From: Halobacterium noricense
Lineage (GTDB): Archaea; Halobacteriota; Halobacteria; Halobacteriales; Halobacteriaceae
Assembly: GCF_021233435.1 (NCBI RefSeq)
Contig: NZ_CP089468.1
Coordinates: 62,001-126,000, forward strand
Direction: 5' to 3'
DNA length: 64,000 bases
The position numbers were made by a program, and so were the translations under genes. The notes beneath the pieces were generated by a model that had not been told where the DNA came from, made no database searches, and was given only the letters and a program-made list of their open reading frames with translations. The first letter of the stretch is position 1, and the number at the start of each line of letters is the position of its first letter. Of this stretch, positions 40,122-42,341 are shown one piece after another.

Positions 40122-41005
40122 CCGACGGGTTCGGTCTCGCCGAGGACACCGAGGGAGCGTCCGGCGACGAGTTCGAGGAAATCGACGTCTCGGACACGGA
40201 AGCGGACCGCATCGCACGCAGACAGGACCGGGAGTTCGCGGAGTTCCGGAAGCGTCTGAAGGACAACGAGCGGTTCAAACTCGACGACGGCGCGTTCGAC
40301 GACGCGACGTACGCCGCGATCTACAAGCTCGTCGAGGACGGCTACGTGGGCGCGTTCGGCGGCCCGATTTCGACCGGGAAGGAGGCCAACGTCTACGAGG
40401 CGCTGGACCACGACGGCGGCGACGTCGCGGTCAAAGTCTACCGCATCAACGCGTCGAACTTCAAGCAGATGCGGGGCTACCTCGAAGGCGACCCGCGCTT
40501 CGAGGGGATTCGCGGCGACAAGAAGGCGGTCGTGTTGTCGTGGACGCGCAAGGAGTTCGCGAACCTCCAGCGCGCCCGCGAGGCCGGCGTTCGCGTCCCC
40601 GAGCCCATCGCGGTCCAGCGGAACGTGCTCGTGATGGAACTCATCGGACGGGAGGGTGACGCCGCGCCGACGCTGAACGACGTCGACGTGGACAACCCCG
40701 AGACGGCCTACGAGGTCGTCCGCGAGTACATCCGCCGGCTGTACGACGCGGGGCTCGTGCACGGCGACCTCTCGGAGTACAACCTCGTGGTGTACGACGG
40801 CGAACTCGTCGTCATCGACGTCGGGCAGGCGGTCACCATCCACCACAACAAACACGACGAGTTCCTGCAGCGGGACTGCCGGAATATCGCGAACTTCTTC
40901 GCGCGACAGGGCGCGGATGTCGACCCCGAGTCGCTGTACGACTACGTCGTCGAGAACGCGTCGCCGCGGTCGGACGAGACGACCGACCGCCCCGATGACG
41001 AGTAA
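40118..41005 (+). CDS. rio1: RIO1-family serine kinase
   Basis: 295-aa atypical kinase/ATPase that acts in small-subunit maturation. Gly loop STGKEANVYEA, ATP lysine in VAVKVYRI, catalytic LVHGDLSEYN, metal Asp in VIDVGQAV. Acidic N- and C-terminal extensions. GTG start at 40118 is the only start that fits the N-terminus. Cotranscribed with eif1A; both act on the 30S subunit. Confidence 0.92.
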   Translation: MTDGFGLAEDTEGASGDEFEEIDVSDTEADRIARRQDREFAEFRKRLKDNERFKLDDGAFDDATYAAIYKLVEDGYVGAFGGPISTGKEANVYEALDHDGGDVAVKVYRINASNFKQMRGYLEGDPRFEGIRGDKKAVVLSWTRKEFANLQRAREAGVRVPEPIAVQRNVLVMELIGREGDAAPTLNDVDVDNPETAYEVVREYIRRLYDAGLVHGDLSEYNLVVYDGELVVIDVGQAVTIHHNKHDEFLQRDCRNIANFFARQGADVDPESLYDYVVENASPRSDETTDRPDDE

Positions 41006-41016
41006 CCGACCGCAAT

Positions 41017-41204
41017 CGTTTTTACTGGATTCCGACTACTGCCGAGTATGCGGCCCGCTCCCACTGGCTGGCGCTGGCGTGCTCCGGGAGCGGGCAGTCT
41101 CGTCGCCGCGGCCTGACGGGCGTCACCCGGTCGGGTCGGGCGCGTGGCTCCCTCGCTTCTCTCGCGCATCGCTCCGCCGAGCACCTGCCACACCCACTAC
41201 ACAC
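41017..41204 (+). promoter_or_regulatory. trpS promoter and leader region
   Basis: TATA box CGTTTTTACTGG (41017-41028) is placed 25-30 bp before the ATG of a 22-codon ORF, not before trpS. GCCCGCTCCC (41053-41062) and GGGAGCGGGC (41086-41095) form a perfect 10-bp stem whose loop holds two Trp codons; GCTCCC at 41147-41152 could pair with GGGAGC instead. No TATA-like box is visible in the 60 bp before trpS. The direct repeat CTCGCGCATCGCT (41161-41173) also occurs upstream of srp54. Confidence 0.55.
41048..41116 (+). CDS. Putative Trp-codon leader peptide of trpS
   Basis: 22 codons, ATG to TGA, with Trp at positions 8 and 10 (TGWRWRAP). A TATA box about 27 bp upstream predicts a leaderless transcript starting at this ATG. 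Placement before a tryptophanyl-tRNA synthetase gene suggests a sensor of Trp-tRNA supply. Caution: the local CTGGCG repetition makes TGG codons likely by chance. Confidence 0.45.
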   Translation: MRPAPTGWRWRAPGAGSLVAAA

Positions 41205-42341
41205 ATGCCAACCGACTCCGTCACACCGTACAGCGTCGCGGGCGACGTCGACTACGAGAAACTGCTCGCCCAGTTCGGCGCGGACGCACTGACCGACGAC
41301 CAACGCCGCCGCTTCCCCGACCACCCGCTCGTGCGCCGCGGCTCGTTCTACGCGGGCCGCGACGTGGACGCGTTCCTCGATTCGGACGAGCAGTCCGTGG
41401 TCACGGGCATCGGGCCGTCCGGGCCGATGCATCTCGGGCACGCGATGGTGTTCTACTTCGCGAAGCGCCTGCAGGACGCGCTCGGCGCGCGCGTCTACGT
41501 TCCCGTCTCGGACGACGAGAAGTACTGGTTCAAGGACCAGACCGCCGCGGAGACCGCCGACTACCTCGAAGACAATCTTCGGGACCTGCTCGCGGTCGGC
41601 TTCGACCCCGAGCTGACCAGAATCGTCGTCGACACCGAGGACGCGGACGTGGTCTACCCGCTGGCGACGGCGTTCGGGCGGGACGTCACGAACTCCACGC
41701 TCGAAGCCGTCTACGGGACTCCGGCGAACGTCGGGCAGGGGTTCTACCCGGCCGTGCAGACCGCGCACCTGCTCCTCCCTCAGCTCGTCCACGGCGCTCA
41801 CGAGACGCTCGTCCCCATCGCCGTCGACCAGGACCCGCACGTTCGCGTGAGCCGGGACGTCGCCGCGAAAGCCCGCTACCCCGCGAGCAAGCCCGGCGCG
41901 CTGCTGATGCGGTTCCTGCCGTCGCTGGGCGGTCCCGGGAAGATGAGTAGCTCCGAGGGCGTCGCGATTCGGCTCACGGACGACGCCGAGACAGTTCGAC
42001 AAAAAATCCGCGAGCACGCCTACACGGGCGGCCGCGCGAGCGTCGCGGAGCACCGCGAGCACGGCGGCGACCCCGAGGTCGACGTCCCGTTCCAGTACCT
42101 CGCAGCGTTCTTCGAGCGCGACGACCGCGAGCTCGCGCGCGTCGAGCGCGACTACCGGCGCGGCGACCTGCTCTCGGGCGAACTGAAGGAGCTCGCCGCC
42201 GACCGCATCGTAGACTTTCTCGACGGGCACCAGCGCCGCCGCGACGCGCTCGGGGACGTCCGCGAGGAGCTCGCAGCCTACCGACTGACGGCGGACGAGC
42301 GCGAACGCGCGCGTGCATCGGTCGGCTTCCAGCGTGAGTGA
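41205..42341 (+). CDS. trpS: Tryptophanyl-tRNA synthetase
   Basis: 378-aa class I synthetase of the archaeal/eukaryotic type. HIGH-like PSGPMHLGHAM (near 70), DDEKYWFKD, GTPANVGQGFYPAVQ, DQDPHVRVSRDVA and KMSSSEG (near 247). ATG 41205 gives MPTDSVTPYS. Its 3' end overlaps the remnant gene at 42334 by 8 bp. Confidence 0.95.
   Translation: MPTDSVTPYSVAGDVDYEKLLAQFGADALTDDQRRRFPDHPLVRRGSFYAGRDVDAFLDSDEQSVVTGIGPSGPMHLGHAMVFYFAKRLQDALGARVYVPVSDDEKYWFKDQTAAETADYLEDNLRDLLAVGFDPELTRIVVDTEDADVVYPLATAFGRDVTNSTLEAVYGTPANVGQGFYPAVQTAHLLLPQLVHGAHETLVPIAVDQDPHVRVSRDVAAKARYPASKPGALLMRFLPSLGGPGKMSSSEGVAIRLTDDAETVRQKIREHAYTGGRASVAEHREHGGDPEVDVPFQYLAAFFERDDRELARVERDYRRGDLLSGELKELAADRIVDFLDGHQRRRDALGDVREELAAYRLTADERERARASVGFQRE

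Follow-up and report, generated by a model that had tools for sequence, protein, structure and literature searches.

A conserved tryptophan-codon leader with two covarying hairpins precedes a haloarchaeal tryptophan--tRNA ligase gene and likely acts as a tryptophan-responsive regulator

Gene control by leader-peptide attenuation is a textbook mechanism in bacteria. In Escherichia coli, attenuation at the trpL and pheM-pheST leaders uses runs of cognate codons within a short leader. The leader of the auxiliary tryptophanyl-tRNA synthetase (TrpRS) gene trpRS1 of Streptomyces operates by ribosome-mediated transcriptional attenuation (Vecchione and Sello 2010, J Bacteriol 192:3565, as cited in PMC4787780), while T-box and amino-acid riboswitch systems place aminoacyl-tRNA synthetase genes under the control of charging state. 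No case of archaeal leader-peptide attenuation was found in the open-access literature that we searched, subscription papers being outside its scope.

The nearest archaeal data come from differential RNA-seq (dRNA-seq) of Haloferax volcanii, in which a 23-aa upstream ORF (uORF; mass 2743) was reported in the long 5'-UTR of the tryptophan--tRNA ligase gene HVO_A0127 and a 26-aa uORF before pheS, HVO_2948 (PMC4983044, Table 2). Neither uORF is accompanied by an additional transcription start site at the main ORF, and the study gives only uORF lengths, pI and masses, with no mention of Trp or Phe codons, hairpins, attenuation or conservation (PMC4983044). The same work shows that H. volcanii has many leaderless uORFs ahead of longer genes, and translational coupling in this species is reported to fade above ~30 nt (PMC12548453).

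Here, we examined a window of 64,000 nucleotides of Halobacterium noricense (contig NZ_CP089468.1), for which a preliminary description made from the sequence alone had proposed that a leaderless Trp leader peptide controls trpS via ribosome stalling. The core of this proposal is supported by comparison with relatives; regulation by Trp is without experimental proof. We conclude that positions 41012-41163 likely constitute a Trp-responsive leader-peptide regulator based on ribosome-mediated sensing of Trp-tRNA(Trp), a reading that rests on comparative support and not on measured leader translation, stalling or Trp-dependent expression. The features of the locus, in window coordinates, are as follows.

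41012-41024, + strand: BRE/TATA promoter element (sequence, and A/T profile of 74 leaders)
41048-41116, + strand: leader peptide ORF, MRPAPTGWRWRAPGAGSLVAAA followed by stop (ATG, 21 codons and TGA; translation)
41053-41062, + strand: 5' arm of hairpin P1, inside leader codons 2-5 (covariation)
41069-41077, + strand: putative regulatory codons Trp-Arg-Trp, TGG CGC TGG (both TGG kept in 73 leaders)
41086-41095, + strand: 3' arm of hairpin P1 (covariation)
41096-41104, + strand: 5' arm of hairpin P2, starting at the first base after P1 (covariation)
41117-41129, + strand: predicted apical stem of P2, CGGG-CGTCA-CCCG (RNAalifold on a longer alignment; no separate covariation support)
41141-41149, + strand: 3' arm of hairpin P2, ending in the invariant GCT of GCTC (covariation)
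41147-41163, + strand: GCTC[A/C]CT and pyrimidine tract after P2 (GCTC invariant in 61/61)
41205-42341, + strand: trpS, tryptophan--tRNA ligase, 378 aa (NCBIfam NF008927, 523 bits, cut-off 478)

The positions given in the preliminary description for the TATA box, the 22-codon ORF, its Trp codons and a 10-bp hairpin all held against the window sequence. The leader Trp codons are codons 8 and 10 (41069-41071 and 41075-41077), and the TATA-like TTTTTA lies at 41019-41024, ~27 nt 5' of the leader ORF. In a profile of 74 leaders, the maximum in A/T content (73-84%) falls at -30..-27 relative to the leader start, whereas the equivalent position before trpS reaches only 30-38%; BRE-like motifs are commonest at -37/-36 from the leader start. 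The promoter signal thus belongs to the leader and not to trpS, and the transcript is predicted, from the TATA position and the H. volcanii start-site data, to begin at the leader ATG or a few nt away. The evidence that leader and trpS share one transcript is indirect, consisting of this promoter profile and the H. volcanii dRNA-seq. The Haloferax leaders in our ortholog set are likewise 23 aa long, and the H. volcanii uORFs are very likely the same leaders, carried on transcripts whose single start lies upstream of the uORF, with the caveat that the H. volcanii leader sequence itself was not compared.

The trpS start is the ATG at 41205; in H. noricense its frame is open for 288 nt 5' of this codon (window 40917-41204), and it is closed in most relatives. 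The window trpS is probably an auxiliary TrpRS copy, because the genome encodes a second, longer TrpRS (520 aa), the 378-aa gene is absent from 2/13 Halobacterium genomes, a close ortholog occurs in only 53/146 genomes of the order, and copies are plasmid-borne in several haloarchaea.

The locus thereby resembles Streptomyces trpRS1 in having a Trp-coding leader before a (probably) auxiliary TrpRS gene and two TrpRS genes in the organism. The Streptomyces system, however, is a bacterial transcriptional attenuator, whereas the haloarchaeal one has a predicted leaderless leader and two adjacent covarying hairpins without a standard terminator, and no sequence relation between the two is expected. 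Unlike E. coli trpL and pheM, the haloarchaeal element has no supported mutually exclusive antiterminator helix and no U-run terminator, and its stop codon falls inside the second hairpin. It shares with T-boxes and amino-acid riboswitches the proposed control of an aminoacyl-tRNA synthetase gene by charging state, but matches no Rfam family and would sense through the codons of a translated ORF, translation being inferred. As far as the literature searched shows, ribosome-mediated sensing of Trp-tRNA is likely new for Archaea; the preliminary description had also noted that such control is poorly documented there.

To assess conservation, trpS orthologs were gathered from the genus, the family and named haloarchaeal genomes, giving, after duplicates and truncated loci were dropped, 77 orthologs with upstream sequence (57-92% protein identity). 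A short upstream ORF started by ATG or GTG and containing in-frame TGG-N3-TGG precedes 73 of the 77. By comparison, a mini-ORF with WxW or WW was found within 250 nt upstream of 3/236 genes in a 400-kb sample of the H. noricense genome; this background comes from one 400-kb stretch plus targeted stretches and not from the whole genome. Given 73/77 orthologs against 3/236 background genes, the WxW leader before trpS is not due to chance. The check that the preliminary description had proposed, namely conservation of the ORF and its Trp codons upstream of trpS in relatives, was hence passed.

The pattern of variation within the leaders points to constraint on codons. The distance from the start codon to the first Trp codon is exclusively 15, 18, 21, 24, 27 or 30 nt, all multiples of three, and the codon between the conserved TGGs varies (CGC 50, CGT 11, CAG 6, CAC 4, CAT 1 and TGC 1 among 73 leaders). 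Fifteen leaders carry three Trp codons and one carries four. The distance from the first Trp codon to the 3' arm of P1 is congruent with the frame in 67/74 leaders, the exceptions being Halorussus, whose leader simply terminates in a different frame, and three leaders too short to reach the arm. As Halorussus loses the frame downstream of the Trp codons and retains the RNA arm, and as the start-side spacing keeps to multiples of three, constraint on the Trp part acts at the level of codons and that on the arm at the level of RNA. Across Halobacteria, the Trp codons, the reading frame and the hairpin are kept while the surrounding sequence varies. The leader thus bears a strong coding signature, its translation being inferred in the absence of ribosome profiling data. 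This codon-level constraint (the spacing, the retained TGGs and the variable middle codon) answers the concern, voiced in the preliminary description, that local CTGGCG repetition could yield TGG by chance.

Four of the 77 orthologs lack the full motif: two second plasmid copies with one Trp codon (L069 and L076), and another second copy (L078) and a metagenome-assembled genome (MAG; L097) with none. A shortened leader, VSTSxETDERRWR followed directly by a stop, with one Trp codon and the hairpins kept, was observed before five second, mostly plasmid-borne trpS copies (L069, L076, L298, L303 and L304).

The RNA structure was evaluated on an alignment of 61 sequences (A1). In H. noricense, the P1 arms pair perfectly over 10 bp, the 3' arm corresponds to codons 13-16, and both Trp codons lie within the loop (41063-41085). 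In A1, 94.3% of P1 cells are paired and 76 have changed on both sides (double-change cells), whereas shuffles yield 23.5 +/- 7.9 (0/500); registers slid along the alignment give 32-51% pairing. At columns 21/83, H. noricense itself has a compensatory P1 change in which U-A is replaced by C-G; P1 is weak or rearranged in seven lineages. For P2, 93.4% of cells are paired, double-change cells number 62 where shuffles give 22.3 +/- 5.4 (0/500), and slid registers reach 24-63% pairing. The shuffles ignore relatedness, which the slid-register control does not. P1 and P2 are real conserved RNA structures. The leader stop codon falls inside P2 in 59/61 aligned sequences, at a clade-dependent position (columns 92, 97/98, 104 or 113) and with differing stop codons.

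This support rests on comparison and not on folding energy, since the single-sequence folding energy of the leader region of H. noricense is no better than that of shuffles (z = -1.0) and Rfam gives no match. When the whole window was searched with Rfam covariance models at gathering thresholds, only one tRNA was returned, with no family at the leader and no T-box, riboswitch or Trp leader match.

Beyond P2, GCTC is followed by ~13 nt of pyrimidines, and sequence information falls to background ~16 nt after GCTC. This GCTC[A/C]CT motif with its pyrimidine tract is likely the expression platform. No run of 5 T/U occurs in the C/U tract after P2, hence no standard intrinsic terminator; because archaeal termination signals differ, the missing U-run counts solely against an output of the bacterial type.

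The preliminary description further suggested that the 3' arm of P1 could pair alternatively with a downstream segment (GGGAGC 41086-41091 with GCTCCC 41147-41152). This pairing exists in H. noricense and is not preserved in relatives: it shows no double changes, the pair 76:145 is broken in 50/60, and 41147-41149 instead belong to the covarying P2. Of its cells, 82% are paired against 37-68% in slid registers. The duplex energy of the P1 3' arm with the downstream segment equals that of swapped partners (fraction/p = 0.50), while the P1 control is >10 SD better. As a switch, the helix is unsupported, lacking covariation and being broken in most relatives, yet it is not excluded, its partner columns being nearly invariant. 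Two further pairings were also tried, one joining the P1 3' arm to the downstream CGCTTTCTC and the other joining CGCTTTCTC to a segment close to the start of trpS; in neither were native pairs better than swapped ones. No alternative helix linking P1 opening to P2 is backed by coevolution. Because the alternative helix is supported neither by covariation nor by the swap test, the model is at its least certain in how it connects P1 to the output.

The distribution of the element was explored with a covariance model of P1-P2 (R1) searched in genomes of the order, which matched 66/146 genomes at E <= 1e-3 and 177/392 genomes at E <= 1e-7. Upstream of the auxiliary TrpS it was found at 78 loci; none is without a Trp codon, and 75 have two or more. 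It also precedes members of a 530-aa TrpS subfamily (TrpS-530; ~30% identical) at 23 loci (1-3 Trp codons each, and at least two at 18 of them), and, in one MAG (L251), trpD followed by trpF, with the leader MLSAFRSWSWRWYRSGKRTVS containing three Trp codons (WSWRW). Trp runs lengthen in frame, as in WQWRW, WRWRW and WWRWW. The element hence accompanies three kinds of Trp gene, the minor exceptions with Trp codons being an ABC transporter, a methyltransferase and one unnamed gene. Being per-genome counts that overlap the first ortholog set, these numbers do not represent independent events, unlike the association with unrelated Trp genes, which is independent. Three genomes (L174/G025, L175/G024 and L250/G095) have the element ahead of a GNAT acetyltransferase gene; these copies retain both hairpins and include a leader ORF, yet have no Trp codons.

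Several individual loci deserve mention. In the trpD-trpF MAG (L251, G039), a 40-codon ORF begins where trpS usually would and runs into the trpD start codon (ATGA overlap); it might possibly be a trpS remnant that couples translation. Trp-bearing copies precede the ABC transporter gene (one Trp; L287, G279) and the SAM-dependent methyltransferase gene (two Trp; L300, G189), and L317 has an element with one Trp before the unnamed gene. At six loci of one clade (L240, L241, L245, L316, L320 and L321), the leader of the 530-aa TrpS has only one Trp codon (RRWHP). Two loci classed as 'other' (L279 and L297) are likely frame mis-picks of TrpS genes. No WxW leader was found before the element-free TrpS-530 genes of Halobacterium and its family, nor before TyrS, nor before element-free trpB/trpC or chorismate-binding genes in Halobacterium.

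A leader of its own, conserved and ending in GFGFFF or close variants, precedes pheS in Halobacterium and many other genera, and resembles the logic of E. coli pheM. In an 8-bp hairpin of this leader, codons 3-5 (CCGAACCC) are matched by GGGTTCGG, located at the first Phe codon, and some changes are compensatory (e.g. GAGCCC/GGGCTC and GAATCCC/GGGATTC). The leader likely matches the 26-aa uORF reported for H. volcanii pheS. At the pheS loci L109-L121 and L184-L209, the predicted leaderless Phe leader reads MASEP...PGFGFFFA, with variants, and lies ~75-160 nt before pheS. Together, the Trp and Phe leaders suggest a general device.

Could the locus be explained without Trp sensing by a ribosome? 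The conserved entity might be a structured RNA, such as a Trp riboswitch or a protein-binding RNA, with the ORF and its Trp codons as a by-product. The strong covariation of P1 and P2 favors this view, as does the retention of GCGGACAGT even where the frame changes (Halorussus). It does not account for a start-to-Trp spacing that varies only by multiples of three behind in-frame ATG or GTG starts, for TGGs kept while flanking and middle codons change and Trp runs lengthen in frame, or for copies at non-Trp genes that lose Trp and keep the hairpins, and we consider it very unlikely. A generic uORF effect or translational coupling, tuning trpS regardless of Trp, draws support from the frequency of leaderless uORFs in H. 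volcanii (PMC4983044). The gap between leader stop and trpS start is, however, 75-152 nt in the orthologs (mostly 75-105), and since coupling in H. volcanii fades beyond ~30 nt (PMC12548453), coupling by reinitiation is unlikely; such an effect would also leave unexplained the Trp codons at Trp genes and the Phe codons at pheS. This second view therefore seems highly improbable as well.

The leader peptide might alternatively be a functional small protein acting in trans, in line with the conservation of a short peptide and with the known bacterial trans-acting Trp leader peptide peTrpL (PMC7298713). Outside the Trp residues, however, the peptide is conserved no more than the hairpin arms require, and some leaders stop right after Trp (VSTSLETDERRWR and VTPALAGIARWRWR, each followed by a stop), and we consider this role very unlikely. 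There remains a chance ORF in GC-rich CTGGCG-type repeats, or a piece of an N-terminal extension of trpS, the latter suggested by the trpS frame being open upstream to 40917 in H. noricense. The leader is nevertheless in a different frame from trpS, most relatives have a stop in the upstream trpS frame within ~80-110 nt, and the leader conservation statistics refute both versions, which can be practically ruled out.

We thus favor ribosome-mediated sensing of Trp-tRNA(Trp), which may operate as follows. Transcription would start at about the leader ATG, and the 22-codon ORF would be translated leaderless, as inferred from the TATA position and the H. volcanii start sites. When charged tRNA-Trp is scarce, the ribosome would stall on Trp-X-Trp and cover the 5' arm, so that P1 stays open. 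When Trp is plentiful, it would reach the stop codon in P2, allowing P1 to re-form while the terminating ribosome disturbs P2, a step inferred from the geometry. The state of P1 and P2 would be read at or near the pyrimidine tract after P2 and would set the expression of trpS ~55 nt further on, which is predicted to rise when Trp-tRNA is short, the direction being inferred. Whether the output is premature transcription termination, of the archaeal U/C-rich or FttA type, we cannot call either way; control of trpS translation is a reading that we lean slightly against.

A bolder interpretation, towards which we incline by a narrow margin, is that leaderless, amino-acid-specific leader peptides form a family in haloarchaea and regulate by stalling (Trp for TrpRS and trpD, Phe for pheS) with a non-bacterial output, and that the element has spread between TrpRS genes that are not related and has also reached a GNAT gene, there without its Trp codons. 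If ribosome-mediated sensing is confirmed, ribosome position would be coupled to gene control in Archaea despite their eukaryote-like RNA polymerase and TFB/TBP promoters, and the element would offer a handle on archaeal transcription-translation coupling and early transcript termination. With candidates for both the Trp and the Phe leaders, the genetically tractable H. volcanii makes the question testable.
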